Positions 31,637-45,728 of a stretch of DNA of 53,052 nucleotides are shown one piece after another. The first letter of the stretch is position 1. Every line of letters begins with the position of its first letter. The translations under genes were made by a program, and so were the position numbers. Origin of the DNA: Rhodoferax sp. (GTDB lineage: Bacteria > Pseudomonadota > Gammaproteobacteria > Burkholderiales > Burkholderiaceae_C); the NCBI RefSeq assembly GCF_018063565.1, contig NZ_JAGPBB010000016.1, forward strand, positions 1-53,052, read 5' to 3'. The notes beneath the pieces are model-generated. The model did not search any database. It was given only the letters and a program-made list of their open reading frames with translations, and had not been told where the DNA came from.

Positions 31637-31679
31637 GTCGGAATCTCCTGAAATTTATAAGGACTGCCTAAAGGACGGA

Positions 31680-33173
31680 TTACTTGTCACCCAGGCGGAT
31701 CGCCTTGCTGACCAACTGATGAACGCCGCCGACCATACTCATGTTGAAACCGTAGTAGGGCAGCACCTTGGTGAATTGCGCTTTGCAGATCGCACAGATG
31801 GTGGCCATGAAATTGACGTCGTGGTCGTCCACCACATGCTTGAGCGCTTCCATGCGGGGTAGCGCACCCTTGACGCGCAACTCCATCAGGTCATCGGTCA
31901 GCAGGCCTCCACCACCACCGCAGCAAAAGGTGCTCTCGTGGATCGTCTCGGGGGCCATGTCGTGAAAATTGTTGGCGACTGACGTAATGATGCGACGTGG
32001 AATGACAAACTGGCCACCAGGCATGTTGCCCATGCGCGATGCCCGCGCCACATTACACGAATCATGAAAGGTGATGATCCGGCTGTCGTTGGCTTCCTTG
32101 TCGAACTTCAGCGCACCCTTTTGAATCAGGTCGTCAGTGACCTCGCAAATATGTTGGGGTACCGGGTAGCGCTGGTCCAGGAAATCAAAGGGACCAATCA
32201 GTGTGTTCCAGAAACTGTAGGCCACGCGCCAGGCGTGCCCACACTCGCCGACCACAATGCGCTTGACGCCGAGCTCAAGCGCCGCTTCTCGGACGCGCAT
32301 CGAGATGTTGCGCATCTGCTCATAGTTGCCGATGAACATGCCAAAGTTGCCGGCCTCGGAGGCATGAGAACTCAGGGTCCAACTGATACCTGCGGCGTGA
32401 AACACCTTGGCATAGCCAATCAGGCTCTCGACGTGCGGCTCCGAGAAAAAGTCGGCCGATGGGGTAATCAGCAAGACCTCGGCCCCTTTGACGTCCAGCG
32501 GGAACTTGATGTCAAACCCCGTGTCATCTTTGGTGTCTTCTTCAAGACCTTCCAGCGTGTTGATCAGTGCCGGCCCTGGAATGCCCAGGTTATTGCCAAT
32601 GCGGTGCACCTTGCCAATGATCTCGTTGGAGTATTTCTGCCCCATGCCGATCGAGTCCATGATCTCGCGGGCAGCCATGGTGACTTCGGCGGTGTCAATA
32701 CCATAGGGGCAAAACACCGAGCAACGGCGGCACTCTGAGCACTGGTGGTAGTAGCTGAACCACTCGTCAAGCACTTCGCGGGTCAGGTCAACTGCGCCCA
32801 CCAACTTGGGAAAATACTTGCCAGCAACGGTGAAATAGCGGCGATACACCTTGCGCATCAAATCCTGGCGCGCGACCGGCATGTTCTTGGGGTCGCCGGT
32901 ACCCAGGAAATAGTGACATTTGTCAGAGCAGGCACCGCAATGCACGCAGGCATCCATATAGACCTGAAGCGAGCGGTACTTACCCAGTAACTCGCCCATC
33001 TTGGCGATGGCCTTGGCCTGCCAATCGTCGACCAATTGCTCCGGAAAATTCAGAGGCTTTTGAATGGGACCCGGTGCCACGAAGGGTTTAAGGTGCGACA
33101 TCGCACCCGCCTGGACCAATGGAATGACAGGGTAGCTCTTGAGCTTGGGCGTTTCAAATGCAGCGGTAGCCAT
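31680..33173 (-). CDS. dsrK: DsrK, HdrD-like iron-sulfur subunit of DsrMKJOP
   Basis: The 497-aa cytoplasmic protein has two ferredoxin motifs (CVHCGACSDKC and CSECRRCSVFC) and HdrB/D-type CCG elements (VGECGHAW, FHDSCNVAR, TFCCGGGGGLL) that would hold the noncubane [4Fe-4S] site acting on DsrC trisulfide/disulfide. It works with DsrM, immediately upstream (14 bp), in the core DsrMK module. The length agrees with DsrK of purple sulfur bacteria. Confidence 0.95.
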   Translation of the reverse strand: MATAAFETPKLKSYPVIPLVQAGAMSHLKPFVAPGPIQKPLNFPEQLVDDWQAKAIAKMGELLGKYRSLQVYMDACVHCGACSDKCHYFLGTGDPKNMPVARQDLMRKVYRRYFTVAGKYFPKLVGAVDLTREVLDEWFSYYHQCSECRRCSVFCPYGIDTAEVTMAAREIMDSIGMGQKYSNEIIGKVHRIGNNLGIPGPALINTLEGLEEDTKDDTGFDIKFPLDVKGAEVLLITPSADFFSEPHVESLIGYAKVFHAAGISWTLSSHASEAGNFGMFIGNYEQMRNISMRVREAALELGVKRIVVGECGHAWRVAYSFWNTLIGPFDFLDQRYPVPQHICEVTDDLIQKGALKFDKEANDSRIITFHDSCNVARASRMGNMPGGQFVIPRRIITSVANNFHDMAPETIHESTFCCGGGGGLLTDDLMELRVKGALPRMEALKHVVDDHDVNFMATICAICKAQFTKVLPYYGFNMSMVGGVHQLVSKAIRLGDK

Positions 33174-33187
33174 GGTCGTGCAGGTTC

Positions 33188-33922
33188 TCAGGGACGTTTT
33201 TCAAGCGCGGCAGCCCAGGCCGACACATGGCGGACCTCCCGGGCGTTGTCTGTCTGATTGCGCGTTGGACTAAAGAACAATCCGGGCGCATGCAGCAATT
33301 TGCTCAACGGGAAAATAATCATCAAAATGGCCACCAAACCCAGGTGGACCAACAAAACTGGATCAGCTGGCAAGGGCTGCCAGTCAAAGCGCATCAGGCC
33401 CAACATAAAAGCCTTGACCGCCACGATATCCGTGTGCGAGACGAAGCGCATCGTCAGGCCGGAAATACCAATCAGCATCAGCAGTGCCAAATGCAGGTGA
33501 TCGGAAGGCGTCGAAATGTAGCGAACCCGGTCAACCAGCCACCGCCTGGCCCACAGCCCGCCCAATGCAGCGACCATGACGAAGCCACCGTAAGTCCCAA
33601 AGGGCTGGATCATGGCCACAGGAAGCCACACCGGCTCCTGAAAATAACGCAAATGGCGCAGCGTGACCAGGAACAAGGTAAAGTGAAATGCCCAACCAAA
33701 TATCCAGGTCCATTTGCTGGACTTGAAAAGGCTTTCAAAATAGACAACTTCCCGAACCAGGCGCCAATACACCCCACTTTGGGTCATGGGTGCTGGTGTG
33801 GTGGCGATTTTCAAAGGTGCCGGGCTGCCGGCATAGCGGCGAATCCTGTTTGCCAAACCCGCAAACAAGACAATGGCCGCTACATTGAAGAGCACAGCAT
33901 AGAAAATCGACAGCATCGACAT
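33188..33922 (-). CDS. dsrM: DsrM, NarI-like cytochrome b subunit of DsrMKJOP
   Basis: The 244-aa product has about five membrane helices and conserved histidines suited to two b haems (FGWAFHFTLF, HLRYF, DHLHLALLM, LLVHLGLVAI). DsrM links quinone oxidoreduction to DsrK on the cytoplasmic side. Two in-frame ATGs (33922 and 33916) are possible; the first is used. It lies between dsrC (58 bp away) and dsrK. Confidence 0.93.
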   Translation of the reverse strand: MSMLSIFYAVLFNVAAIVLFAGLANRIRRYAGSPAPLKIATTPAPMTQSGVYWRLVREVVYFESLFKSSKWTWIFGWAFHFTLFLVTLRHLRYFQEPVWLPVAMIQPFGTYGGFVMVAALGGLWARRWLVDRVRYISTPSDHLHLALLMLIGISGLTMRFVSHTDIVAVKAFMLGLMRFDWQPLPADPVLLVHLGLVAILMIIFPLSKLLHAPGLFFSPTRNQTDNAREVRHVSAWAAALEKRP

Positions 33923-33980
33923 GGCCAGACCCGAGGTTAATCAGCGTTCGGTTGGAGAAGTGAGTTCCGCAAACTGTGCT

Positions 33981-34313
33981 TTAGATACAGCCGGTGGGCT
34001 TGGGCAAGCCAGCGATTTTGCAAGCCTGCTTGGCCGGACCATAGGGGAACAGGTCGTACAGGTACTTGCTGTTGCCTTTTTCTTCACCAAACTGTTTGCC
34101 AATGGCCTTGGTCAGCACACGGACGGCTGGGGCAATCTGGTACTCGTTGTAGTACTCGCGCAGAAAGTTGATCACTTCCCAGTGGTTGTCGGTCAGAACC
34201 ACTTTCTCTTCTTCTGCCAGGTGTCCGGCAGCGTCGGTGGTCCACTCTGCCAGGTTCAGCAGGTAGCCTTCTTCGTCGGTTTCGTAGGTTTTACCGTTAA
34301 TTTCAAAGCTCAT
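33981..34313 (-). CDS. dsrC: DsrC, sulfur-carrier protein with both redox cysteines
   Basis: The 110-aa product is a canonical DsrC. The start is the ATG at 34313, preceded by GGAG. It shows TDEEGYLLNLAEW, LTDNHWEVINFLREYYNEYQ and the C-terminal arm with Cys98 and Cys109 (KQACKIAGLPKPTGCI), 11 residues apart and with the final cysteine penultimate. DsrC takes sulfur from DsrEFH and presents it as persulfide/trisulfide to DsrAB and DsrK. It is the only fully functional-looking member of the three DsrC-family sequences in this window. Confidence 0.97.
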   Translation of the reverse strand: MSFEINGKTYETDEEGYLLNLAEWTTDAAGHLAEEEKVVLTDNHWEVINFLREYYNEYQIAPAVRVLTKAIGKQFGEEKGNSKYLYDLFPYGPAKQACKIAGLPKPTGCI

Positions 34314-34348
34314 GTTTTTCTCCAGAAAGTTAAATAAAAAATCGCTGA

Positions 34349-34648
34349 TCAAAGCCAGGAATGCGAGGTGCTGTATTCCAGCGTCAGATCAACAAAGCCA
34401 CTGTAATCGACCAGGGTGATGCCGTCCATGACTTTGCCGGTGGCGCCACGCGCGTCAACATCGGGCTGTAAGGCATAAAACTTGATGCCACTGGCGGCCT
34501 GGCGCACCATGGTTTCAACGCTGGTGCCGACGGTGGCACCGTACACGCCGTCTTCAATCAGAAGCACGGCACTGCCGGGTTTGGCCAAACGCAGGCAAGT
34601 TTGCAAGCTGGTGGACTGGAACGGTGATTTGTTAACAATGTGCAACAT
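34349..34648 (-). CDS. dsrH: DsrH, subunit of the DsrEFH sulfurtransferase
   Basis: The 99-aa product belongs to the DsrH/TusB family, starting MLHIVNKSPFQSTSLQTCL with Cys18 near the conserved position, then LLIEDGVYGATVG. It joins DsrE and DsrF in a hexameric sulfurtransferase that hands sulfane sulfur to DsrC. The gene lies between dsrF and dsrC with short gaps. Confidence 0.94.
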   Translation of the reverse strand: MLHIVNKSPFQSTSLQTCLRLAKPGSAVLLIEDGVYGATVGTSVETMVRQAASGIKFYALQPDVDARGATGKVMDGITLVDYSGFVDLTLEYSTSHSWL

Positions 34649-34676
34649 GGGATGGGTCCTATTTCTTGGCTGCTGG

Positions 34677-35072
34677 TCAGAAACTCAGGATCACATCCTG
34701 TTCGGCCATGAGTTGCCCCATTTCCTCGGTGTCCAGCACTTCCACCGGGACCAGCAAATCCTTCTCTGTCAGGCCGCGCTGGTCAAGCGACGCGCGGTCG
34801 ACGTAAAGTTTCTCGACGTCGTAACCATCCAGCGCCCGGTAGGTTTTGGAGTGGTTCTTGATACCGATGGCCTTGGTTTCCTGGCCCTTGAGCAGTTCAT
34901 AGACGCCATCATCGATAAAAACCAGGCTCACATCCTGGTCGAAGGTCGCGGTAATCAGGACCACTTCCAGGCTTTCCAGCGCGTAGATGGTGCCGTAGGG
35001 TGCCTTGCGGTTCACAAACATGAATTTCTTCACTTTGGGGCCGCTGGCGGGGGATGCTTGCTGTTCACTCAT
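34677..35072 (-). CDS. dsrF: DsrF, subunit of the DsrEFH sulfurtransferase
   Basis: The 131-aa product has the DsrE/F alpha/beta fold: FMFVNRKAPYGTIYALESLE at the front and DVSLVFIDDGVYELLKGQET in the middle, as in TusC/DsrF. A short polar extension precedes the domain. It has no cysteine, as expected for a subunit that is not the main sulfur-binding site. It is flanked by dsrE and dsrH. Confidence 0.93.
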   Translation of the reverse strand: MSEQQASPASGPKVKKFMFVNRKAPYGTIYALESLEVVLITATFDQDVSLVFIDDGVYELLKGQETKAIGIKNHSKTYRALDGYDVEKLYVDRASLDQRGLTEKDLLVPVEVLDTEEMGQLMAEQDVILSF

Positions 35073-35090
35073 TTGCTGTCTCTTTATGCG

Positions 35091-35450
35091 TTAATCACCA
35101 AAGGTGACCAGTCGATCCGCCTTGATGCCACTGTCCACCAGCTGACCCAGACCCGAGATGCGGAAACCTGGCGCCAGGTTTTCGTCGCGGATACCGCGAC
35201 GCAAAGCAGCCGCCACACACACCACCAGATCCACCTTGTGGTCCGCGGCCAGCGCCGACCAGCGGTTGACAATGTGGCGATCATCCTGTGGCGGGTCCGT
35301 CAGTCGGGTCGCGTTGTTGACACCATCGTGATAGAAAAAGATACGCTGGATCTCATGCCCTTTGGCGATAGCGGCTACCACAAACTGGTAGGCGCTATCA
35401 GACGCCTGATGCGTGTAAGGGCCTTCACTGACAAGTAAGCCGAATTTCAT
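35091..35450 (-). CDS. dsrE: DsrE, catalytic subunit of the DsrEFH sulfurtransferase
   Basis: The start is the ATG at 35450 (MKFGLLVSEGPYTHQ). The 119-aa product has the active-site cysteine at residue 78 (DLVVCVAAALRRGI), the same position reported for A. vinosum DsrE. It carries persulfide sulfur and, with DsrF and DsrH, passes it to DsrC. dsrEFH is found in sulfur oxidisers and not in typical sulfate reducers, so it helps assign the direction of this pathway. Confidence 0.95.
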   Translation of the reverse strand: MKFGLLVSEGPYTHQASDSAYQFVVAAIAKGHEIQRIFFYHDGVNNATRLTDPPQDDRHIVNRWSALAADHKVDLVVCVAAALRRGIRDENLAPGFRISGLGQLVDSGIKADRLVTFGD

Positions 35451-35472
35451 GGTGAAGATGTTTGGTAATGGA

Positions 35473-36543
35473 TCAGAAGCGGATATGAGTCGAGGCATTC
35501 AAGCTCGAGCGAGAACCACGCCAGTCGTCAATCAGGTACTTGGTAAAGGGCAGATCGCATTTCTCAAAGAACTGCGGCCAGCCGATGCGCTCGATCCAGT
35601 CCGAAACGCGCTCCCACGAACGTGCATCTTCCTTGTAGGTGTAGAGAATTTTCTTCACCATGGCCGACACTTCGGGCCAACGCGGCGGGTTGTTGGGCAG
35701 GCCAGAGGCCACCATCTTCATGAACGTTGGCTTGCCACGGGCGTTGGAATTCTTGCCGCCCACCCAGATCGCCAGCTTGCTGTGGTCCGGGTCATTGATC
35801 TGCATCGGGGGGCAGGGCGGGTAGCAGGCGCCGCAGCACATACATTTCGACTCGTCAATTTCGAGCGACGGCTTGCCGTTGACCATGGCCGGGCGAATGG
35901 CTGCCACCGGGCAACGCGCCACCACGGTGGGGCGTTCACACATGTTGGCCACCAGATCGTGATTGATCTTCGGCGGTTTGGTGTGTTGCACCACAATGGC
36001 GATGTCAGCCTGGCCGCCGCAATTGATTTCGCAGCAGGAGGTGGACAGGTGCACACGGTTGGGCATCTCTTCCTTGACAAATTCAACCACCAGCTCGTCC
36101 ATCAGCGCTTTGACCGCACCGGAGGCGTCTGTGCCAGGAATGTCGCAGTGCAGCCACCCCTGGGTGTGGGCGATGGCAGACACCGAATTGCCCGTGCCGC
36201 CGACCGGAAAACCATTGCTGCTCAGCGCCTCGATCAGGGGTGCCACCTTGGTCTGATCCGACACCATGTATTCGATGTTGCTGCGGATCGTGAAACGCAC
36301 ATGACCGTCGGCAAAGTTGTCGGCGATGTCACACAGCTTGCGAATGGTGAACAAATCCATCTGGCGCTGCGTGCCGGCTCGCACGGTCCAGATCTCATCG
36401 CCCGAATGCGCCACATGGTGCAGCACGCCCGGACGCGGCCGGTCGTGGTACTTCCAGTTGCCATAGTTCTTGACCATCAGCGGGTGCAGATACTGTTTGT
36501 TATCTGGCACGCCACTCTCAATAGGTGTACGTAAGGTTGCCAT
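35473..36543 (-). CDS. dsrB: DsrB, beta subunit of reverse dissimilatory sulfite reductase
   Basis: The 356-aa product contains the sirohaem/[4Fe-4S] region TSCCEINCGGQADIAIV and a ferredoxin domain (RCPVAAIRP, then KCMCCGACYPPCPPMQI). DsrAB forms an alpha2beta2 enzyme that, in this context, oxidises DsrC-bound sulfur to sulfite. The gene is 29 bp downstream of dsrA, and the length is standard. Confidence 0.97.
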   Translation of the reverse strand: MATLRTPIESGVPDNKQYLHPLMVKNYGNWKYHDRPRPGVLHHVAHSGDEIWTVRAGTQRQMDLFTIRKLCDIADNFADGHVRFTIRSNIEYMVSDQTKVAPLIEALSSNGFPVGGTGNSVSAIAHTQGWLHCDIPGTDASGAVKALMDELVVEFVKEEMPNRVHLSTSCCEINCGGQADIAIVVQHTKPPKINHDLVANMCERPTVVARCPVAAIRPAMVNGKPSLEIDESKCMCCGACYPPCPPMQINDPDHSKLAIWVGGKNSNARGKPTFMKMVASGLPNNPPRWPEVSAMVKKILYTYKEDARSWERVSDWIERIGWPQFFEKCDLPFTKYLIDDWRGSRSSLNASTHIRF

Positions 36544-36572
36544 GTTGTCTTCCTTTTACAAGTTCTTGGGGT

Positions 36573-37853
36573 TCAGGCCGCTGCTTTGCGTGCGTTGATC
36601 TTGGCGACTTCGTCGTCCCAGCCGTCGGTACGGACATAGGGGTTGGTCCGTGGAGTCGAGACCATATTCGGGTCGATTTCCACGCCGATGCCTTCGAGGA
36701 AGTTGATCAGGCCGATGCGCTCGATCATTTCGCCGGTGCGTTCATGCTCCAGGGCGTTTTCGGCGAAGAAGTCGATCGATTTCTGTGCGTGCTCCACCAG
36801 GGCTTCGTAATCTTCATCGGTTTCCATCTTCATGAACGGAATCACCACGGTACCCATCAGGTCACCAATCTTCAGGGTGCGCTTGCCGCCCATCAACACG
36901 GTCACGCCCTTGTCGGTGCCAATCTGCAGGGCGCCGGTCATCACGTTGATGCAGTGCATGCAACGCACGCAGTTGCCGTTGTCGATTTCGAGGGCCTGGG
37001 TGTCATTGACGGCGACGCTGGAAATCTTGGCACCGGTGCCGACATCCTTGATTTCCTTGAGCATGATCGCCTTGGTCGGGCAGCGGCTGACCACGTCGTT
37101 CACCAGTTCGTTCATGCCATGCTTGGCGAACCACTTCTTGGCCATGCCTTCGTCGGTGCGAATGTTGTCGCGCCAGGTACCGATCACGGCCATGTCGGCG
37201 CGCTGGATCGAGTTCATGCAGTCGTTGGGGCAACCCGAGAACTTGAACTTGAACTTGTAGGGGAGCGCCGGGCGGTGCATGTCGTCCAGGAAGGTGTTGA
37301 CCACTTCGCGGTGGGCACGGGCTTCGTCGTAGCACGATTGTTCGCAGCGCGCTGCACCCACGCAGGACATCGAGGTGCGCACTGCCGGGCCGGCACCACC
37401 CAAGTCAAAGCCGAGTTCGTTGAGTTCGTCAAAAGCACCTTGCACATTGGCGGTGCTGGCACCCTGGAACATGATGTCGCCCGATTGACCGTGGAACGCG
37501 ATCAGGCCTGAGCCATGTTTCTCCCAGATGTCGCACATCTTGCGCAGCACGTTGGTGTCGTAGTGCATGCCGGCGGGCGGCTGAATACGCAAGGTGTGGA
37601 ACTCTTTGGATGCCGGGAACATCTCGGCCACTTCAGAAAAACGGGGGATGACACCGCCGCCGTAGCCAAACACGCCCACGGTGCCACCCTTCCAATAGCC
37701 CTTGCGGGTTTTGTAAGAGTGCTCGAGCTGACCCATCAGGTCAGTCATGTAGTCGTTGTCTTTGGCCAGGCGTTTCAGACCAGTCACGAAACTCGGCCAT
37801 GGACCGCTTTCGAGCTGATCGAGCATTGGGGTGTCATGGGGTTGTTTGCTCAT
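36573..37853 (-). CDS. dsrA: DsrA, alpha subunit of reverse dissimilatory sulfite reductase
   Basis: The 426-aa product carries the sirohaem-[4Fe-4S] ligands as C-x5-C (SCVGAARCEQ) and C-x3-C (SGCPNDCMNS), and a ferredoxin insertion with CPTKAIML and CVRCMHCINVM. It is the first gene of the dsr operon; GGAG precedes the ATG. With DsrB it is the catalytic core of oxidative sulfur metabolism here. A divergent accessory cluster starts 306 bp away. Confidence 0.97.
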   Translation of the reverse strand: MSKQPHDTPMLDQLESGPWPSFVTGLKRLAKDNDYMTDLMGQLEHSYKTRKGYWKGGTVGVFGYGGGVIPRFSEVAEMFPASKEFHTLRIQPPAGMHYDTNVLRKMCDIWEKHGSGLIAFHGQSGDIMFQGASTANVQGAFDELNELGFDLGGAGPAVRTSMSCVGAARCEQSCYDEARAHREVVNTFLDDMHRPALPYKFKFKFSGCPNDCMNSIQRADMAVIGTWRDNIRTDEGMAKKWFAKHGMNELVNDVVSRCPTKAIMLKEIKDVGTGAKISSVAVNDTQALEIDNGNCVRCMHCINVMTGALQIGTDKGVTVLMGGKRTLKIGDLMGTVVIPFMKMETDEDYEALVEHAQKSIDFFAENALEHERTGEMIERIGLINFLEGIGVEIDPNMVSTPRTNPYVRTDGWDDEVAKINARKAAA

Positions 37854-37998
37854 GGCGAATCTCCAGTCAGGGGCTAATTGGGCGTTGATAAAACGGGGTT
37901 TGGCGATAGCAACAAGAAAGGCCGCTAAAGCATCAGAAGCGAGACGAATGTTACGGGCCGCCGGTGCTGCCCAACTATCACCCTCGTTGAGTAGGCAA

Positions 37999-38108
37999 GG
38001 CTACCCATTCGGTCTATATGCGCCCACCCGAGTCGGTTATAGACGCCAAGCTCAGGATTGCGCCAAATACGGTTTGTGGCAGATTTTTGTTTGATCTGCA
38101 GATTTTTG
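37999..38108. promoter_or_regulatory. dsrA / accessory-cluster divergent control region
   Basis: This 306-bp gene-free gap (37854-38159) holds several structures. Bases 37999-38012 read GGCTACCCATTCGG, matching 13 of 14 bases of the soeA-region box on the other strand and including the heptamer TACCCAT. GCAGATTTTTG occurs twice (38079-38089 and 38098-38108), 19 bp apart, with ATCTGCAGAT as a palindrome at the second copy. These are plausible operator sites for regulation in both directions; none is proven. Confidence 0.45.
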
Positions 38109-38159
38109 CGACCCGATCGCATCCGATCCATTGAATCCTAAAAAAGCGAAACCAGGACT

Positions 38160-38414
38160 ATGTTCAGCGTGATACCCCTGGAAAAATTTACCAGCCCGTT
38201 AGGCGGGCAGGTCATCGAACTGCAGCAGCTTGACTACGACGCCGGCGGCATGAGTCTGTTGCGTACCCGTATTCGCGAGCGCAGCCGCTTTACCGTTTTT
38301 GAAGTGGATCCCCTGCTGGCACGCCAATGGGGCGAAGCGCTGTTGCGTTGGGCCAATTCGCAACCCCAAGAGCAGACAGATCGCAGCACCACCACAGCGG
38401 GTGGGGCGACATGA
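38160..38414 (+). CDS. Unknown 84-aa protein, first gene of the dsr-divergent cluster
   Basis: The product begins MFSVIPLEKFTSPLGGQVIE and is predicted to be a small soluble alpha/beta protein with a polar C-terminus. It contains no cysteine, signal or recognised motif. The Shine-Dalgarno match (AGGA) is close to the ATG. Its stop overlaps the start of the Cas6-like gene (ATGA), so the two are probably made together. Given that coupling it may be a partner of the RAMP protein. I do not recognise the family. Confidence 0.65.
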   Translation: MFSVIPLEKFTSPLGGQVIELQQLDYDAGGMSLLRTRIRERSRFTVFEVDPLLARQWGEALLRWANSQPQEQTDRSTTTAGGAT

Positions 38415-39025
38415 ACACCATCCCGGTGGGGGTGGCGCATCCTGTGGATGCCATTTTCTCCGTCGAAGGGCAGTGTTTGCCCAGGGATCACGCGCAGGCC
38501 TTGCAGCAATCACTGTGCGTGCTGTTTCCGTGGCTGCAGCAGGATGCGGTAGCAGCCGTGATGCCGCTCAAACTGGTCGACGGGGAGGGCGAGTTGGTCG
38601 CGTTGTCCAAACGTATGCAGTTGGTGCTTCGGGTTCAGAGCAGCCGTATGCCCGATGTGTTGGCGGTGGCCGGGCGTGAGGTATCGGTGGCGGGCTGCAA
38701 GTTGCGGCTCGACAAACCGCATTTTCGCGAACTGCGCCCCCACGCCACCCTGTACGCCTACAAGGTGGCATCGGCGGGTCAAGGTGAGTTGGCGTTCATG
38801 GAGAGCATGAATCAGGAGTTGGCGCGGCTGTCGATTGGCGGCGAGCGGGTTTGTGGCAAACGCAGCCAGATGACGGTGTCGGGTCAGGTGCTCGAAACTT
38901 TCAGTCTGATGTTGCACGCCTTGCCGCCAGACCAGTCTTTGCGGCTGCAGCAGTTTGGCCTTGGACCACACCGCCTGTTGGGTTGCGGGGTGTTTGTGCC
39001 CCACAAATCAGCGGCGGCGGTGTGA
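38411..39025 (+). CDS. Cas6/Cmx6-like RAMP protein outside any CRISPR locus
   Basis: The 204-aa product resembles the Cas6/Cmx6 (type I-MYXAN) pre-crRNA endonuclease family from end to end: an N-terminal VDAIFSVEGQCLPRDHAQAL block (family pattern F-x-G-x-x-LPxDHGYxL), LVLRVQ in the place of the L-R-x-R-hydrophobic strand, VLAVAGREVSVAGCKLRL, ATLYAYKVA, and the C-terminal glycine-rich loop GLGPHRLLGCGVFVP. His27 is a candidate catalytic residue. The ATG at 38411 overlaps the preceding stop. No CRISPR array or other cas gene is in the window. The similarity is from my memory of the family and needs a profile search; its function here is unknown. Confidence 0.75.
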   Translation: MNTIPVGVAHPVDAIFSVEGQCLPRDHAQALQQSLCVLFPWLQQDAVAAVMPLKLVDGEGELVALSKRMQLVLRVQSSRMPDVLAVAGREVSVAGCKLRLDKPHFRELRPHATLYAYKVASAGQGELAFMESMNQELARLSIGGERVCGKRSQMTVSGQVLETFSLMLHALPPDQSLRLQQFGLGPHRLLGCGVFVPHKSAAAV

Positions 39026-39056
39026 TTTTTTATCAATTGAAACTGGAGAAAAGGGT

Positions 39057-39386
39057 ATGAGCTACAACATTGGTGGCGTGGAGCACGAAGCTGACGATCA
39101 GGGCTATCTGGTGGAACCGGTGTTTGACGATGAGGCACCGCGGGTGATTGCCGCAGCCGAGAACATCGAGCTGACCGACGCCCACTGGGAAGTCATCAAC
39201 TACCTGCGCGACGAATACCGTGAAAATGGTCACACTCCCAATTTCCGCAACATGCTCAAGGGTTTTGCAGAAATTCACCCCGGGGTTGACAGCAAATACC
39301 TCTACGACCTGTTCCCCATCGGTCCGGCCAAGCAGGGCCCCAAGGTGGCCGGTTTGCCACAGCCGTTGGGTAAAGGCGGTTATTGA
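39057..39386 (+). CDS. Cysteine-free DsrC paralogue (RspA/TusE-like)
   Basis: The 109-aa product aligns with DsrC along its whole length (ADDQGYLVEPVFDDEAPRV, ELTDAHWEVINYLRDEYREN, SKYLYDLFPIGPAKQGPKVAG), but the C-terminal arm reads GLPQPLGKGGY. Both redox cysteines are gone and there is no cysteine anywhere. DsrC homologues without both cysteines have been grouped as RspA and proposed to be regulatory. The ATG at 39057 has GGAGAAAAGGG upstream. It follows the Cas6-like gene by 31 bp. Confidence 0.92.
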   Translation: MSYNIGGVEHEADDQGYLVEPVFDDEAPRVIAAAENIELTDAHWEVINYLRDEYRENGHTPNFRNMLKGFAEIHPGVDSKYLYDLFPIGPAKQGPKVAGLPQPLGKGGY

Positions 39387-39404
39387 TCATTGTCAGGATC
39401 GAGC

Positions 39405-40031
39405 GTGTCCAAAATCCGCATCAAGAGCCAGTGGTTTCGCCCCGGGGCCGACAAAACCCCTGAGCAAACTGCCAGCGCCGTGGCCTTTACCGCCTGGCGC
39501 GTGGCGCAGAACATGCTCAAGCAGATGCGGGTGGCGCAGTTTGACATTGAAATCGGCGAGCAGTACTTTGCCTTTACCCGCGAGGTGCTGGTGTTTCTCA
39601 CCCAAGTCCTTGACCGCATGGCCTACCAGCGCATGTCAGCGCAGGAGCGCCTGGCTTTCGTGACCGCACTGGTCAAGCGGGTGGGTGAGATCTTGCAGGA
39701 CAACGAAGACGGGTTGCTGGGACAACCGGCTGTAGGGCAGCCCAGCCATTACGAGCAGTTTATCGACCTGTTCAACGAACTGGCGGACCATTACGCCGAT
39801 TTTGGCTTCAACGCCCAAGGGCCGGACTTTGATTTTGTGCGCTACCTGGGTTACCGCATTGAAATGCTGATGCCCAAGAAGGACCAGCGATGGGTGCTCG
39901 ATCAGGTCATGGCCAGCGAGGTACCCGAGGCCATTGCTTACCTGCAGAAAGCCATGGATGGTGTGCTGAGCACCGAGCCGCGCGCGCCACGCCCGTCGCG
40001 AGTGCCGCGTGGCGTCCTGTCGGGTGACTGA
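39405..40031 (+). CDS. Unknown helical protein (about 208 aa)
   Basis: GTG at 39405 is the preferred start because AGGA lies 8 bp upstream; TTG at 39390 is an alternative. The protein is soluble and largely helical with no cysteines (RVAQNMLKQMRVAQFDIEIG; FIDLFNELADHYADFGF), and ends in a disordered Pro/Arg-rich tail. No domain is recognised. It starts 18 bp after the DsrC paralogue and ends 6 bp before the dioxygenase gene, so it is part of the same operon. Confidence 0.75.
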   Translation: MSKIRIKSQWFRPGADKTPEQTASAVAFTAWRVAQNMLKQMRVAQFDIEIGEQYFAFTREVLVFLTQVLDRMAYQRMSAQERLAFVTALVKRVGEILQDNEDGLLGQPAVGQPSHYEQFIDLFNELADHYADFGFNAQGPDFDFVRYLGYRIEMLMPKKDQRWVLDQVMASEVPEAIAYLQKAMDGVLSTEPRAPRPSRVPRGVLSGD

Positions 40032-40037
40032 TTTGAA

Positions 40038-40943
40038 ATGAACGCGTCCCCCTTTGACCTGCAGACAGATGCTGCCTATCAGCGCTGGCGTGCCGATAAG
40101 TTGGCCCGATGTCCCACCCGCGCCGAACAACTGGTGGTGGACATTGGGGATCCGCGCGTGTTGACCGCTGCAGAAAAGCAGGCCTTGCTCACACGCTGTG
40201 TCACCAGCAATATGGTGCTCTATCGCAGCCCGGTGCTCGCAGAAGACAAGGTCATCCCGCTTGCGCTGGGCCGTCAGGTGGGTTTGCACCAGCTCGACGG
40301 CAACTGGCTGGCCGATGAAGACGGCATTTCACCCATTGCCGTGTCGCAGCCACCGGGTGAGCGCATGGCCTTCATCCCCTACACCAATCGCCCGATCAAG
40401 TGGCATACCGATGGCTACTATCAGCCGCCCGAGCGCAAGATTCGCGGCATGATCCTGCACTGTGTGCGCCAGGCGGCGCAAGGTGGCCACAGCGCCCTGA
40501 TGGACCACGACATGGCTTACCTGGCCATGCGCGACGCCAACCCCGAATGGGTGGCTGCGCTGATGCATCCCGATGCCATGACCATTCCCGAGCGCCTGGA
40601 CGACGACGGCATCGCCCGTGCCGCGCAAAGTGGTCCGGTGTTTTCAGTCGATGCGGCTAGCGGGGCCTTGCACATGCGCTACACCGCCCGCACCCGCAGC
40701 GTGGTCTGGCGCGATGACGCAGTGACCCGCGCGGCGGTGGCGTTTCTGGAGCAGTTGCTCGCCAGCGAGCACCCGGCGGTATTTCGCCTGCAGCTGCAGC
40801 CCGGTATGGGCCTGCTGTGCAACAACGTGCTGCACGACCGATCGGGTTTTACGGACGACCCGGCGGCCCCTCGTTTGTTGTACCGCGCGCGTTATCTGGA
40901 CCGCGTCGCAATGCCACATCCTGAACCCGTCAATGGTGGCTGA
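40038..40943 (+). CDS. TauD/TfdA-like Fe(II)/2-oxoglutarate dioxygenase
   Basis: The 301-aa product has the iron facial triad in the expected order: His123-x-Asp125 (IKWHTDGYYQP) and the distal His266 (NNVLHDRSGF), with Arg284 in LLYRARY as the candidate 2-oxoglutarate ligand. TauD relatives oxygenate taurine, sulfonates and other substrates using O2 and 2-oxoglutarate. The substrate cannot be assigned here; a sulfonate or a protein/RNA target are both possible given the neighbours. It is in the middle of the dsr-divergent cluster. Confidence 0.82.
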   Translation: MNASPFDLQTDAAYQRWRADKLARCPTRAEQLVVDIGDPRVLTAAEKQALLTRCVTSNMVLYRSPVLAEDKVIPLALGRQVGLHQLDGNWLADEDGISPIAVSQPPGERMAFIPYTNRPIKWHTDGYYQPPERKIRGMILHCVRQAAQGGHSALMDHDMAYLAMRDANPEWVAALMHPDAMTIPERLDDDGIARAAQSGPVFSVDAASGALHMRYTARTRSVVWRDDAVTRAAVAFLEQLLASEHPAVFRLQLQPGMGLLCNNVLHDRSGFTDDPAAPRLLYRARYLDRVAMPHPEPVNGG

Positions 40944-40950
40944 ATTTTTC

Positions 40951-41000
40951 ATAAAAACTGTTTATAGCCCATATTTGGTATGGTTTTAATGCTATATAAA
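40951..41000 (-). repeat. Degenerate copy of the dispersed repeat (reverse orientation)
   Basis: Reading the minus strand, TATAGC, CCATACC, ATATGGGCTA and a following GTTTTTAT correspond to the 8155-8190 copy and its flank. It fills the 76-bp gap before the HTH-ferredoxin-reductase gene. Confidence 0.4.
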
Positions 41001-41019
41001 TTATAACAAATCAATCGTC

Positions 41020-42495
41020 ATGGCGCATCAGGTCAGTATTTGGCGAGCGGCCCAGTTGGTGGGCGTGGCACGGGGTGTGTTACAGCAGCAAGTGCGCACC
41101 GGTGCCTTGCTGCTCAATGATGGCATGGTGTCGACCGAAGCATTGCTGCGTTTGTACCCGAACGCTTCTCTGGAAGAGTCCGGTCTGCTGGAGCGGGTGG
41201 CGCAAATCCGTGACGAGGCTTTTGGCAAGCGTTTGCGCGAGCGCCTGTTGCCCAGCCAGGAGGTCCTGGCACAGCGCCTGTTTGCACAAAGCCAGGAGCT
41301 TGGTGACGTCCGCCTGCATTTGCAGCGCTACCACGAGCTCGTCATTGCCTTGCAAAAAACCATTCGCGAGCGATTGGCCCACCGTCCGCAGGACACAGCG
41401 TGGCAAGCGCTGGAGCGTCAGGTGACCGGTGGCCTGGCCGCGGCACTGGCCACAGATGCGGTCGATTTACTCGAAGTGATGGACGATATGCTCAAAATCA
41501 TGACGGCACAGGTCACGGTGCAGCCCAGCGGTCACCAGTTTCTGGTGGAAGGGCATTCCAACCTGCTGCAGTCCGGCCTGCATTCGGGCTTGCGGCTGAA
41601 CTACGGCTGTGGCAACGGCAGCTGCGGTATGTGCAAGGTGCGGGTCATCTCAGGCGATGTGGTGCAAACCCAGCATTACGACTACTGCCTGTCCGAAACC
41701 GAAAAGTCACAGGGTTACACCCTGATGTGCTGCCATACTGCCGGAAGCAGTGAGCTCACGCTGGAAATGCTCGAAGCGGGGGGGCCGCAGGACATCCCCG
41801 AGCAGCAGATTGTCACCAAGGTGCGCGCACTGACCACCCTGGCACCCAATACCCGATTGCTGCAGTTGCAAACGCCGCGCACCCACCGACTGCGTTTTCT
41901 TGCCGGGCAGTCGGTGTCGCTTGGGTGGTCAAATTCCGCGCAGGGTGACGCCCAAAGTACCGAGGCCATTGCCAGTTGTCCGTGCGATGACCGCAATCTG
42001 CTGTTTTTTGTAGCGCGTGATGAAGACAGCGCATTGGCTCAGGCGGTGTTTTCGGACCAGTTGGGTCATGGTGACGCCGTCACGGTGCGTGGCCCGATGG
42101 GGGAATTTGTGCTGTCCGAGGGTCATCGGCCCCTGGTGTTTGCAGCCTGTGATCTGGGTTATGCCCCGATCAAAAGCCTGATTGAACACGCGCTGGCGCT
42201 GGATGCCGTGCCCTCGCTGTCGTTGTTCTGGCTGACTTTGCGTGCCGATGGCCACTTTCAAGCCAATCAATGCCGTGCCTGGTCAGAGGCACTCGACAAT
42301 TTCGAGTACGGCCTGTTCACCAATACCGACGTGGTGGCGGGTGCCAGGGAGATTGCGCTGGCCATGCACGCTGACCTGTTTGACATCGAGTGCGACTTTT
42401 ACCTGTGTGGCCCGGCGGCATTTGTTGACACCTTGTTTGACGACTTGCGTCACGCGGGCGTTCCCGCTGCCCAGATTTTCAAGCAGGTGATGTGA
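41020..42495 (+). CDS. Three-part protein: HTH-like N-terminus, 2Fe-2S ferredoxin, FNR-type reductase
   Basis: The 491-aa product has residues 5-48 resembling a MerR/excisionase-type HTH (VSIWRAAQLVGVARGVLQQQ), then a helical, possibly coiled-coil stretch (55-160), a plant-type ferredoxin with Cys197, Cys202, Cys205 and Cys237/238 (YGCGNGSCGMCKVRV), and an FNR-like module (262-491) ending with FYLCGPAAFVDTLF. The FAD-binding R-x-Y-S motif is replaced by STEAIAS, so flavin binding is uncertain. It may reduce a cluster partner such as the dioxygenase, or act as a redox-responsive DNA-binding protein. The HTH assignment is tentative; the ferredoxin/FNR part is firm. Confidence 0.8.
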   Translation: MAHQVSIWRAAQLVGVARGVLQQQVRTGALLLNDGMVSTEALLRLYPNASLEESGLLERVAQIRDEAFGKRLRERLLPSQEVLAQRLFAQSQELGDVRLHLQRYHELVIALQKTIRERLAHRPQDTAWQALERQVTGGLAAALATDAVDLLEVMDDMLKIMTAQVTVQPSGHQFLVEGHSNLLQSGLHSGLRLNYGCGNGSCGMCKVRVISGDVVQTQHYDYCLSETEKSQGYTLMCCHTAGSSELTLEMLEAGGPQDIPEQQIVTKVRALTTLAPNTRLLQLQTPRTHRLRFLAGQSVSLGWSNSAQGDAQSTEAIASCPCDDRNLLFFVARDEDSALAQAVFSDQLGHGDAVTVRGPMGEFVLSEGHRPLVFAACDLGYAPIKSLIEHALALDAVPSLSLFWLTLRADGHFQANQCRAWSEALDNFEYGLFTNTDVVAGAREIALAMHADLFDIECDFYLCGPAAFVDTLFDDLRHAGVPAAQIFKQVM

Positions 42496-42839
42496 TGCAG
42501 CCTCATGCCCAGGACCCTGAAATGGCGGTGCCCGACTGCGCCGGAGGGGAGTCGTTTGCCCTGATGGTGATGGGGCAAAGCATGACACCCGAGTTTCAGG
42601 AGGGCGAAATCATCATCATCGAACCCGAGGGTTTGGCCAAGGATGGCTCCTATGTGCTGGCCTGGCATCATGAAGAATGGACGTTTCGGCAACTGCTGCA
42701 GGCCGGGGACGGCTGGCTGCTGCATGCGCTCAACCCGGCTTTTCCGGACGAGCCCCTGTCGAGCCTCGCCGATGTGCGCGGCGTGATCATTCAAAAAGCC
42801 TTGCCGGGCCGACGGCGCGCGTCAAAGCACTACATCTGA
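42495..42839 (+). CDS. S24/LexA-like signal-peptidase-fold protein without HTH or catalytic lysine
   Basis: The 114-aa product matches the S24 (LexA C-terminal) fold: ALMVMGQSMTPEFQEGEII with the catalytic-type Ser29, then GSYVLAWHHEEWTFRQLL. The lysine that completes the Ser-Lys dyad is an arginine here (Arg65), so self-cleavage activity is doubtful. No DNA-binding domain is attached. The ATG at 42495 overlaps the upstream stop (TGATG), and may be coupled with the HTH-bearing neighbour, which raises the possibility that the two act together as a split regulator. Confidence 0.8.
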   Translation: MQPHAQDPEMAVPDCAGGESFALMVMGQSMTPEFQEGEIIIIEPEGLAKDGSYVLAWHHEEWTFRQLLQAGDGWLLHALNPAFPDEPLSSLADVRGVIIQKALPGRRRASKHYI

Positions 42840-42865
42840 ACCAAATCCTGATCTGAAATTTCGCC

Positions 42866-43084
42866 ATGCCCTACTACATTTTTTCGGTCAACCCTGGTGC
42901 ACAGTATAAAAAACTGAGCGAATTTGGCGCCTTCAGCGAGGCGTCTGCCCACGCCAAAACGCTGCGGGCACAACAACCCGCCAAAACCCTTGAAAAAATC
43001 AAGGTGATGTTTGCCGAGAGTGAAGATCAGGCCATCGAGCTGATGTTGCAAGTGCGAGAACCTGGCCCCAAGGGCGACGACTGA
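42866..43084 (+). CDS. Small unknown protein (72 aa)
   Basis: The product begins MPYYIFSVNPGAQYKKLSEF and continues with a helical SEASAHAKTLRAQQ and an IKVMFAESEDQAIELML segment, suggesting a compact alpha/beta domain. There is no cysteine or signal. It lies 26 bp after the S24-like gene and 14 bp before the last gene of the cluster. The family is not recognised. Confidence 0.7.
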   Translation: MPYYIFSVNPGAQYKKLSEFGAFSEASAHAKTLRAQQPAKTLEKIKVMFAESEDQAIELMLQVREPGPKGDD

Positions 43085-43098
43085 GCGCTCTGGCGTCC

Positions 43099-43539
43099 AT
43101 GGACGAAGCAGCCTTCCACGCGGCGCGTCAGGCTCTCACGCCTGCGGCCTGCGTGTTTGCCAAAGCGCTGCTGTCAGGGTGCGCACCATGCACCCTGGCC
43201 AAGCGCACGGCCATGGCCGAGCGCGAAGTCATCACGTGCGGCTCGGCGATTGCACACATCAACTGCGGCACGCTCAACGATTTGTTTCGTGAGCGCGCGC
43301 GGTTTGCGCTGCGTTTGCCCCACCGGGACGAACCCATTGTTCATGCCAAGGCGATGAAACTGCAATGTGGCGGACTACGAGGACTGCAGCTTGCGCTCGA
43401 CGCGTCGGGCGGCGATGTTCATGCGATGGTGCAGCAGGCGATGCAAGAAGGCGGCAGTCTGCTCGATCTGCCCTGGGATCGCATCGTGGCCAGTATCGCG
43501 GGATGGGAACTTCGTCGGCGGGCTCCGCCGTTGCACTAG
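43099..43539 (+). CDS. Unknown cysteine-rich protein (146 aa)
   Basis: Six cysteines (residues 18, 28, 31, 47, 56, 90) include GCAPCTLAKR and HINCGTLNDLF; the spacing could suit an Fe-S cluster or zinc site, though no known motif fits exactly. A basic helix (FRERARFALRLPHRDEP) and the C-terminal DLPWDRIVASIAGWELRRR follow. It closes the dsr-divergent cluster, after which a repeat copy and the oppositely oriented yedE gene occur. The function is unknown. Confidence 0.72.
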   Translation: MDEAAFHAARQALTPAACVFAKALLSGCAPCTLAKRTAMAEREVITCGSAIAHINCGTLNDLFRERARFALRLPHRDEPIVHAKAMKLQCGGLRGLQLALDASGGDVHAMVQQAMQEGGSLLDLPWDRIVASIAGWELRRRAPPLH

Positions 43540-43564
43540 CTCCCATCAATCGTATGCATTTGGT

Positions 43565-43599
43565 GCTCTAGCGCTTATCCAGAAAGCGCTGGAAGCTAC
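43565..43599 (-). repeat. Dispersed 35-bp palindromic repeat, copy 4 (between convergent genes)
   Basis: The reverse complement reads GTAGCTTCCAGCGCTTT, then GGATAAGCGCTAGAGC, aligning base for base in length with 12011-12045. It lies between the ends of two convergent genes, where it might help termination. Confidence 0.7.
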
Positions 43600-43620
43600 T
43601 AAAAAAGTACCAAGTTTGAC

Positions 43621-44724
43621 CTATCGCTGTTGCCACTTCATCATCGCTACCGCCCCCGCGACAATGCCCGCGAGCGTGATGAATGAGCCAATCGCCAGCG
43701 TCGACACGCCCGACATACCCTGACCGACGGTGCAGCCGATGGCGGTCACCCCGCCAAAACCCATCAGGATGGCGCCGATCAGTTGGGTCTTCAAATCGTC
43801 AATTGAGGCAAAACCTTCCCAGCGGAACTGCTTGGTGCTGATGGCATATACAAAGGAGCCCATGACCACACCCAAGGCGGTGGCAATGCCAAAGGTCATG
43901 CGGGTTGAGGTGTCGGTCCACAGCATCAGCAACTCCAGGCTGAAAGACACCGGCGCCACAAAACTGAAGGATTCGATGGTGCGGCTGTTGGTGGCAAAGT
44001 AAACCGTCTCCAGTGTCTCCTGGTTTTCACCGTAGCCGATATGCCCACTCAGGTACCAGGCCGCTACCACCAGCAAGCCCAAAATCACCGAGGCCACCAC
44101 CTGGATCAGGTTGCCGCGAAACCGCTTGTCCTTGAATACGAATGCCAGGATGGCCAGCACCAGCACTGCCAGGGTCAGCAGCAGCGCAGTCTGCTCCGCC
44201 ATCCCCGTCAGCTTGGCCAGCAACTGCGACAGACTCTGGTTGGTCATGCCCAGTTTGCTCAGGTCAAGGGTGACCGGATCCAGAAAACCTGCACGCCACT
44301 GGCCAAACAGCCCTTTGAGGGTCATGTATGCAGACAGACCCAGAAACACCAATACCACCACCGAGCGCAGGCTGCCAGCGCCGACGCGGATCAGGTTCTT
44401 GTTGGCGCAGCCACCCGACATGGTCATGCCCACACCAAACAGGACGCCGCCCACCACCATCGACAGCCAGGGCAAGGCCGGGCGCTGATACACCGACTTG
44501 GTCAGATCGATCATGCCAGCGCTGTGCAACCAGTTGGCACCGATCATGGCCACCGCAATGGCCAGCAGCCACATACGCACGCGGCCCCAATGCTCCATGT
44601 TCACCACGTCCGAGATCGCACCCATGGTGCAGAAGTTGGACTTGCTGGCCACAGCACCAAAGACAAAGGCCAGCACAAAGCCACCCCAGATGACGATGCT
44701 TGACGGGTTGACTGCTTCATTCAT
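43621..44724 (-). CDS. YeeE/YedE-family sulfur-compound (thiosulfate-type) transporter
   Basis: The 367-aa membrane protein with about nine to ten helices carries the three cysteine motifs of the family: SNFCTMGAISDV, SGGCANKNLIRVGAGSL and AIGCTVGQGMSGVSTL. In characterised members (TsuA/YeeE) such cysteines line the path for thiosulfate uptake. It is the last gene of a minus-strand unit with tusA and dsrE2, so it probably imports thiosulfate or another sulfane-sulfur compound for the sulfur relay to DsrEFH. Confidence 0.9.
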   Translation of the reverse strand: MNEAVNPSSIVIWGGFVLAFVFGAVASKSNFCTMGAISDVVNMEHWGRVRMWLLAIAVAMIGANWLHSAGMIDLTKSVYQRPALPWLSMVVGGVLFGVGMTMSGGCANKNLIRVGAGSLRSVVVLVFLGLSAYMTLKGLFGQWRAGFLDPVTLDLSKLGMTNQSLSQLLAKLTGMAEQTALLLTLAVLVLAILAFVFKDKRFRGNLIQVVASVILGLLVVAAWYLSGHIGYGENQETLETVYFATNSRTIESFSFVAPVSFSLELLMLWTDTSTRMTFGIATALGVVMGSFVYAISTKQFRWEGFASIDDLKTQLIGAILMGFGGVTAIGCTVGQGMSGVSTLAIGSFITLAGIVAGAVAMMKWQQR

Positions 44725-44749
44725 GACAGTTGCTCCAACTCAATCTGGT

Positions 44750-45622
44750 TCAGTTACCACCGCCTGCGACACGAACCATCGTGGCGCGAATGGCGTCCGG
44801 TGCGTTGATGATGCCCATGAACTGGCCCATACCCAAGGCGGGCCAAGCCAGTGCGATGCGATAGCGGGCATACAGCGAGTACACCTTGTTGCCGACAATG
44901 AACACCTCATAGGGCAGGCCAGCCATGTGATCGGCACCAATCTTGTTGACCCACCAGCCCTCGCCGTCCGAAGCGCTGTTCATCGCCACGCCAAATACCG
45001 CCGTCTGATTCTCGGCTGACACTACTTCGTACACCCGGCTGGTGTCCGAGACGCCGCTGGCCAGATTGGCACGGACCGCCTTTAGCGCTGCGTCAAAATT
45101 GGCATGGGTGGCAATCTCACTGTTGGGCGAGTCAAAACGCTCCATGCCGAACATATATCGGTAGTTTTCCAGATCACCCTCTGCAACATCGCCGCCCATG
45201 CCACCGCCATCACCCAGTGCCTTGGCCAGGCGTGCCTGCACCGACTTGGCACCAGTCTGTGCTGATTTGAACTGACCACGCAGGTAGGCGCGATACCAGT
45301 AATCAGGATTGGTGTATGACACCGAGCCGTCGGGCAGCACGCCCACCCGGATCGCCGACGCAATGACCGTAGAGCCACCCGCTTTGCGGATGACCGCAAG
45401 CATGGCCGGATCGGTGACCACCACCGTGGCATGGTCGGTCAGCCCTTTGGGCAGGTGCCGACCGGCCAGGGTAAAACCCTCGGCCTGCAATTTTTTCTCC
45501 AACAGATCAACCCGTGCCGTCAGGTCTGCGGCGGCGACCTTGTCGCCTTTGATGTACGGTGCCAGCGCAAGACTGAGTTGCGACCAAAAAAGCAGGACAG
45601 CCCAAAGGATCAGTTGTTTCAT
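44750..45622 (-). CDS. Secreted or periplasmic protein of unknown function (290 aa)
   Basis: The start is the ATG at 45622, which gives a clean signal peptide (ILWAVLLFWSQLSLALA). The mature part begins with a VDLLEKKLQAEGFTLAGRHL segment, faintly like DUF302-type proteins, followed by an alpha/beta region with many aromatics (YTNPDYWYRAYLRGQF) and a Gly-rich loop (GDGGGMGGDV). No cysteine or haem motif is present. It sits between yedE and dsrE2, so a role in periplasmic capture or handling of sulfur compounds is likely but unproven. Confidence 0.75.
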   Translation of the reverse strand: MKQLILWAVLLFWSQLSLALAPYIKGDKVAAADLTARVDLLEKKLQAEGFTLAGRHLPKGLTDHATVVVTDPAMLAVIRKAGGSTVIASAIRVGVLPDGSVSYTNPDYWYRAYLRGQFKSAQTGAKSVQARLAKALGDGGGMGGDVAEGDLENYRYMFGMERFDSPNSEIATHANFDAALKAVRANLASGVSDTSRVYEVVSAENQTAVFGVAMNSASDGEGWWVNKIGADHMAGLPYEVFIVGNKVYSLYARYRIALAWPALGMGQFMGIINAPDAIRATMVRVAGGGN

Positions 45623-45728
45623 CGTGGTTCTCGGAAAAATGACATCAGCAAACAAACGACCGGCCCGTTGCGGCAGGGTCGCAAGGGCCGATTTGGCACC
45701 CAGCGGTGCGGCGACAGGCAAGCGGAAA

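Follow-up and report, generated by a model that had tools for sequence, protein, structure and literature searches.

Results

A Cas6/Cmx6-family protein in the reverse-Dsr locus

Next to the dsr genes of the window, by which we mean the whole 53,052-nucleotide stretch of Rhodoferax sp. DNA that was analysed, lies a gene for a protein of the Cas6/Cmx6 family (Table 1). The facts support a Cas6/Cmx6-type protein that has become detached from CRISPR-Cas and is a fixed, vertically inherited accessory of the Gammaproteobacterial reverse-Dsr locus, which suggests that an RNA-handling immune protein has been taken over for sulfur metabolism. In the reading that we prefer, with a probability of about one half, the protein would bind RNA and regulate the dsr system together with a neighbouring DsrC paralogue that we take to be RspA.

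Table 1. Features of the window around cas6, in order of position (strand as + or -; a dot marks a region without strand).
Feature	Positions	Strand	Basis and occurrence
Canonical dsrC, C-terminal cysteines (ACKIAGLPKPTGCI end)	33981..34313	-	Sequence; name presumed
dsrB	35473..36543	-	Name presumed
dsrA, at the head of the divergent dsr operon	36573..37853	-	Name presumed from sequence and gene order
Divergent dsrA/DUF6967 intergenic region	37854..38159	.	Block at about 37971-38064 conserved in the window's closer relatives
DUF6967 (PF22295), 84 aa, overlaps the cas6 start	38160..38414	+	E 1.6e-24; 50/58 order Cas6 loci
Cas6/Cmx6-family protein, 204 aa	38411..39025	+	PF09559, TIGR02807, PADLOC, PDB 8fcj_B, AlphaFold2 model with Foldseek, conservation
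RspA-type DsrC paralogue (name presumed), 109 aa, no Cys, C-terminus KGGY	39057..39386	+	PF04358 E 9e-30; TIGR03342
Conserved 213-aa protein, mostly in the cluster	39390..40031	+	No Pfam match over cut-off; 55/58 order Cas6 loci
TauD-family (2-oxoglutarate/Fe) dioxygenase-like protein, often in the cluster	40038..40943	+	PF02668 E 2e-18; 46/58 order Cas6 loci

The initial annotation had named a Cas6/Cmx6-like RAMP protein by its motif pattern. The reading frame has the position and length given there, and family membership of its product is settled. The protein scores above the curated cut-offs of both Pfam PF09559 (E 3e-52, 177.7 bits against 26.7) and the equivalog-level NCBIfam model TIGR02807, cas6_cmx6 (133.4 bits against 98.85), and it matches six Cas6 models in PADLOC. 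Up to an E value of 10 the sole sequence match in the PDB is 8fcj_B, the Cas6 of a type I-B CAST Cascade (E 2e-11). An AlphaFold2 model, for which 45 related sequences were the input, has a mean pLDDT of 93.6 and is predicted to adopt the Cas6 (RAMP) fold; a Foldseek search of the PDB with it places Cas6 structures at the top, led by 8fcu_B with a TM score of 0.85. The motifs named initially are present, both LPxDH with His27 and the C-terminal glycine-rich loop of G183, G185, G191 and G193 that is typical of the family. The assignment was to have fallen if comparison with Cas6/Cmx6 structures gave no significant match, and the matches of profile and fold are both significant. RRM/ferredoxin-like folds are common, so that a different ferredoxin-like protein might resemble Cas6, but with an equivalog-level score above the curated cut-off, and with both the PDB sequence match and the TM score of 0.85 leading to Cas6, a wrong family call is scarcely conceivable. 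The ATG of cas6 overlaps the stop codon of the 84-residue reading frame as ATGA, in line with the coupling of the two genes that had been proposed. A GTG at 38444 is an alternative start that agrees equally well with the starts of the homologues.

Co-occurrence and gene order with dsrA

The cas6 cluster is divergent from the adjoining dsrABEFHCMK genes on the minus strand, of which we take those in Table 1 to be dsrA, dsrB and dsrC. In a sample of 300 genomes from the order a Cas6-family protein was found in 58, with one copy in each, and dsrA in 64, all 58 Cas6 genomes being among those with dsrA (Fisher p 1e-55). In 321 genomes from the class a profile search found Cas6 in 104, dsrA in 104 and both in 97 (p 3e-64), these p values being merely indicative because the genomes are related to one another. 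The gene order is as constant as the co-occurrence. cas6 is divergent from dsrA in all 58 order loci, with a median start-codon spacing of 579 bp and a maximum of 4.9 kb, and in 18 of the 20 class loci that were fetched at length; of the two exceptions, L205 stops at a contig end and L219 has dsrA about 41 kb off. A DsrC-like gene lies downstream of cas6 within 1.5 kb in every order locus (58/58) and adjoins cas6 in 18 of the 20 class loci. Even four genomes of only 1.0-1.1 Mb retain the cas6/dsrA arrangement. By co-occurrence and by gene order, cas6 is an accessory of the reverse-Dsr locus, and the location in a sulfur-oxidation cluster that was first noticed in the window is conserved across the Gammaproteobacteria, the Burkholderiales included. 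A rearrangement peculiar to this one strain, which had been considered at the outset together with a profile search of dsr-containing genomes, is rejected by the co-occurrence with dsrA in order and class, as Cas6 beside dsr recurs in the class.

Six of the order genomes with dsrA have no Cas6. In G122 the contig ends just upstream of dsrA, and in G145 one dsrA is at a contig end and another is without the usual neighbours. In the other four (G083, G132, G217 and G277) no Cas6 was found even at an E value of 10, and DUF6967 and the gene for the 213-residue protein are retained. Seven class genomes have Cas6 without dsrA. In five of these a KGGY RspA adjoins Cas6; in G425 the contig breaks off a short way beyond Cas6, in the direction in which dsrA would be expected, and the other six are assemblies of 200-500 contigs. 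A further seven class genomes have dsrA without Cas6, the most complete being G505 (99%), G421 (95%) and G408 (94%).

In a draw of 219 genomes from the phylum, PF09559 had no match in any of the 218 others, 45 of which have dsrA, all 45 lying outside the class. The identity of their DsrA is 68-69% in two (G791 and G707) and 45-58% in the rest, from which it seems that some of these genomes may have another Dsr type. A scan of a genome collection with the Cas6-family protein gave at least 586 confirmed relatives among 588 candidate stretches, and in a set of 80 of these at least 586 the names Rhodoferax, Polaromonas, Hydrogenophaga, Sulfuricella and Thiobacillus are frequent. Judged by this similarity, the window would come from a Rhodoferax-like betaproteobacterium.

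Beyond the genes of Table 1, positions 41020-42495 of the window encode a 2Fe-2S/FAD reductase-like protein with an additional N-terminal region; an S24-peptidase-like reading frame of 115 residues (42492-42839) comes after its gene and overlaps it.

CRISPR context

Neither a repeat array nor another cas gene had been seen near cas6 initially, and this holds on a wider search. Direct repeats of at least 20 nt within 200 nt, sought over the entire 53-kb window, comprise five two-copy families that are 70-86% identical; none is near cas6 and none falls in 30000-46000, and the search revealed no CRISPR-like repeat array in the window. The genome-wide cas search covered Cas1 and Cas3. For the genome of the window, an assembly of 4.13 Mb in 196 contigs that is 92.8% complete, it gave no match to Cas1 and a single match to the Cas3 profile, of 36.4 bits, far under the cut-off of 102.45. 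The components by which a type I-MYXAN system is recognised, an array together with cas1/2, cas3, cas8/cmx8 and cas7 as well as Cas6, were therefore not found as a set in the window, nor Cas1 or a cut-off-passing Cas3 in its genome, and a place for cas6 in a CRISPR locus is rejected. No copy was found in viruses or phages: eight viral stretches fitted the pattern, none of them a relative, and there was no phage match.

Among 72 Cas6-bearing genomes (58 from the order and 14 from the class) a Cas1 match was obtained in 20 and none in 52, and Cas3 scored above its cut-off in 15 and not in 57. The 20 genomes with Cas1, like the family name, are what might be expected if the protein processed CRISPR transcripts from arrays at other places in the genome and lay beside dsr by chance. 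This is very improbable given that 52 of the 72, the window's genome included, have no Cas1 match, that Cas3 passes its cut-off in 15 only and that the linkage to dsr is conserved throughout the class.

DUF6967 and RspA as candidate partners

By profile, DUF6967 is found in just one of the 20 class loci as against 50 of the 58 order loci, so that, as far as the profile sees, it is mainly a partner in the Burkholderiales. In G020, G150 and G817, which belong to one genus other than that of the window (19 genomes searched), DUF6967 and Cas6 are fused as one reading frame of 295-297 residues (L072 7022-7912, L082 7031-7915 and L234 1495-2382). In the model of the fusion (pLDDT 88.4) DUF6967 is predicted to consist of four strands and a long helix, while with a pTM of 0.69 the packing of the two domains is not judgeable. 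This beta4-alpha topology is, we presume, reminiscent of PC4-type nucleic-acid binders; DUF6967 has no PC4 match by sequence, and no PC4 was found in 120 genomes searched for comparison.

The gene after cas6 had been described as a cysteine-free DsrC, and its product does belong to the DsrC family without having the C-terminal cysteines, or indeed any cysteine in its 109 residues. We take RspA to be the name for such a cysteine-poor DsrC paralogue. Among the RspA copies of the 58 order loci, 45 are free of cysteine, 12 have a single one and 1 has two; the C-terminus is KGGY in 57 and KAGY in 1, and the class copies (n=18) also end in KGGY. Canonical DsrC, according to the relevant part of PMC3397948, has two C-terminal cysteines. 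RspA also occurs without Cas6: four genomes of the class (G217, G277, G505, G509) and two from outside it (G707, G791) have the KGGY form, and G378 has a KAGY form. Of the order genomes that have no Cas6, G083, G217 and G277 lack an adjoining RspA, with G217 and G277 having their KGGY copy elsewhere, and in G132 the DsrC-like gene is of another type. A strict coupling of Cas6 and RspA is accordingly not supported: the pair is not obligate, and RspA looks like the wider component to which Cas6 would be a later addition.

Residue conservation and selection

Conservation was assessed over 98 sulfur-linked Cas6 sequences (58 from the order and 40 from the class) against seven cyanobacterial plasmid Cas6/Cmx6 proteins, a small comparison set from one phylum. 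Arg74 and Glu126 are invariant in the sulfur-linked set (98/98), and Arg68, Gly149 and Lys199 are each present in 97 of 98. In the comparison set Arg74 is shared, the position of Glu126 is proline in all seven, Gly149 and Lys199 are absent and Arg68 is found in one. The glycine-rich loop is kept in both, Gly191 and Gly193 being present in all 98 sulfur-linked sequences, Gly185 in 97 and Gly183 in 96, and all four in 7/7 of the comparison set. Positions 67, 68 and 199 are basic in the sulfur-linked proteins and mostly non-basic in the comparison set. Position 27 is more variable. It is histidine in all seven comparison proteins and, in the sulfur-linked set, histidine in 81, tyrosine in 15 and asparagine in 2, and on a dsrA tree of 118 loci, 93 of them with His, it changes nine times. 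His27 is a possible catalytic base in the window protein, one that is not kept across the sulfur-linked set.

In a tree of 56 proteins the sulfur-linked Cas6 proteins are a single clade, split from the seven cyanobacterial ones on a branch with an SH-aLRT value of 99. Six of these seven adjoin cas3 and cas8 or cmx8. The seventh, from Gloeobacter morelensis plasmid pGMOR1 (L226 3977-4768), has no annotated cas neighbour in 8.6 kb, and the row of genes in which it lies includes a cupin gene and one of the PAPS reductase family; it is possibly a second sulfur-linked case. Over 71 loci the distances of Cas6 are correlated with those of DsrA (Mantel r 0.71, the best of 2000 permutations giving 0.13), as expected of common vertical descent, and vertical relatedness alone would yield part of this correlation. 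Eight of nine close pairs have a Cas6 dN/dS of 0.09-0.27 and the remaining pair is saturated, which indicates purifying selection. The dN/dS values for RspA were left aside, since DsrC may have been picked up in its place as the highest-scoring hit.

These residues bear on whether the RAMP fold still binds RNA. The protein might instead be a scaffold or allosteric regulator that no longer binds RNA and acts through RspA, DsrEFH or DsrAB. The neighbouring RspA gene, the fusion to the small protein DUF6967, the near-invariant Glu126, Gly149 and Lys199 that are foreign to the compared Cas6 set and the variability of His27 would all fit such a role. The retention of the glycine-rich loop and Arg74 does not, nor do the basic residues at positions 67, 68 and 199, most of them peculiar to the sulfur-linked proteins, which would be expected of an RNA binder, and we consider the scaffold rather unlikely.

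Candidate RNA targets and the divergent intergenic region

Cas6 cuts at the base of repeat hairpins, and by analogy the sulfur-linked protein could be an active endoribonuclease whose specific site is a hairpin of the polycistronic dsr mRNA, for example in the dsrC-dsrM gap. Cutting there would fix how much DsrC is made relative to the membrane complex encoded downstream. The predicted Cas6 fold and the presence of His27 in 81 of 98 sequences are consistent with this, as is the finding that 71 of 118 loci, such as L047 and L041, have a strong hairpin in the dsrC-dsrM gap, by a threshold of our own choice of at least -12 kcal/mol in stability. In the other 47 loci, however, which retain Cas6, the hairpin is missing; the window is one of these loci, as are many close relatives, His27 and His51 notwithstanding. 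His27 is itself replaced in 17 of the 98 sequences. In a raw table the hairpin is present in 66 of 94 loci with His51 and in 5 of 24 without, but when independent pairs were taken on the dsrA tree neither His27 nor His51 was significantly associated with it (8 and 7 pairs, respectively), so that an early impression from partial data, that loss of these residues accompanies loss of the hairpin, is not upheld. Comparable hairpins also occur in other dsr gaps, at 43% for dsrB-dsrE, 17% for dsrE-dsrF, 6% for dsrH-dsrC, 3% for dsrM-dsrK and 1% for dsrF-dsrH, a contrast that is confounded by length as the dsrH-dsrC, dsrM-dsrK and dsrF-dsrH gaps are shorter; the values for dsrB-dsrE, like those for dsrA-dsrB, are unreliable since starts are often misplaced. 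The dsrC-dsrM hairpins may be ordinary elements of mRNA stability, attenuation or processing. Several of them are without an evident U-tract. With the hairpin missing in 47 of 118 loci and not tracked by the active-site residues, it is not supported as a conserved Cas6 target, and we think an endoribonuclease of this kind distinctly unlikely.

The intergenic region between dsrA and DUF6967 contains a block at 37971-38064 with TACCCA...GGGTTAT and CACCCG...GGTGATAGAC palindromes, conserved in most of 53 aligned sequences (the window and 52 others). These resemble what we take to be the sites of NarL-type response regulators, and they look like DNA operators, possibly of NarL type, which would place both operons under shared control. 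Consensus folding of the block in 43 sequences gave -3.6 and -5.8 kcal/mol for the two strands against -0.4 and -0.5 for column shuffles. The stems have two to four pairs only, and palindromic DNA operators would give the same result. A search against Rfam gave no match in the window at the gathering score of any family.

Discussion

The kept fold, the glycine loop and the basic positions speak for RNA binding by the sulfur-linked Cas6, and its neighbours for a regulatory role connected with the DsrC system. That it is absent from the 45 genomes with dsrA outside the class speaks against a part in core sulfur-oxidation enzymology. In the regulator that we favour, Cas6 would keep the RNA-binding surface of its family and would bind a structured RNA, most likely in the mRNA of either the dsr or the cas6-rspA operon. 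RspA, with DUF6967 in the Burkholderiales, would be its protein partner and would report the state of the sulfur-transfer system, and through the complex dsr expression would be tuned at a post-transcriptional level. Such a regulator could cleave RNA by means of His27 or Tyr27 but need not do so; whether the sulfur-linked proteins cleave RNA is uncertain.

A fuller version of this reading can be offered tentatively. It would have a single domestication of Cas6, in the ancestor of the Gammaproteobacterial sulfur oxidizers, give rise to a ribonucleoprotein switch. RspA, with its KGGY tail in place of the cysteine arm, would dock on both the sulfur-transfer machinery and Cas6, and Cas6, with DUF6967 in the Burkholderiales, would bind or process a dsr transcript, such that the state of sulfur transfer sets dsr expression post-transcriptionally. 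If this were true, a lineage of Cas6 would be used entirely for energy metabolism. RNA binding in itself would imply a Cas6 lineage wholly outside CRISPR and a post-transcriptional level at which reverse-Dsr sulfur oxidation is controlled. With so tight a gene set (DUF6967, Cas6, RspA and divergent dsrA), cultured sulfur oxidizers lend themselves to a direct test of the question.

The Cas6/Cmx6 family is already known and is named in NCBIfam; its fixed place in the dsr locus is apparently unreported, no published link between Cas6 and a dsr locus having been found in the open-licence literature. In the portions of PMC7540712, PMC5728499, PMC10952691 and PMC5944118 that concern Cas6, papers in which dsr terms also appear, only CRISPR is discussed, and the relevant portions of PMC4164917 and PMC10910872 make no such link. 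As the NCBI family rule calls the protein a CRISPR component, many sulfur oxidizers are probably misleadingly annotated.

Comparison with known systems

The closest relatives by family are the Cas6 proteins of type I-MYXAN and I-B systems (Cmx6; TIGR02807, PF09559), which share with the sulfur-linked protein the sequence family, the fold, the glycine-rich loop and LPxDH with its His27. The sulfur-linked protein differs from them in its own near-invariant Glu126, Arg68, Gly149 and Lys199, and in tracking dsrA without an array or a cas operon at the locus; the seven cyanobacterial plasmid proteins are 24-29% identical to that of the window. The nearest solved structure, at a TM score of 0.85, is the Cas6 of the type I-B CAST Cascade (PDB 8fcj and 8fcu), which by PDB title is a member of a Cascade/transposition complex and which in 8fcj has asparagine where the window protein has His27. 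The neighbouring RspA is likewise a paralogue within the DsrC/TusE/RspA family, and whereas canonical DsrC, in the part of PMC3397948 that describes it, has two C-terminal cysteines, RspA of the window has none and ends in KGGY. Recruitment of Cas proteins for functions beyond immunity has precedents, such as the dev operon of Myxobacteria, in the account given in the relevant section of PMC8730458. The non-immune CRISPR components described in that section are multi-gene systems or CRISPR RNAs, whereas here a lone Cas6 is tied to an operon of energy metabolism.
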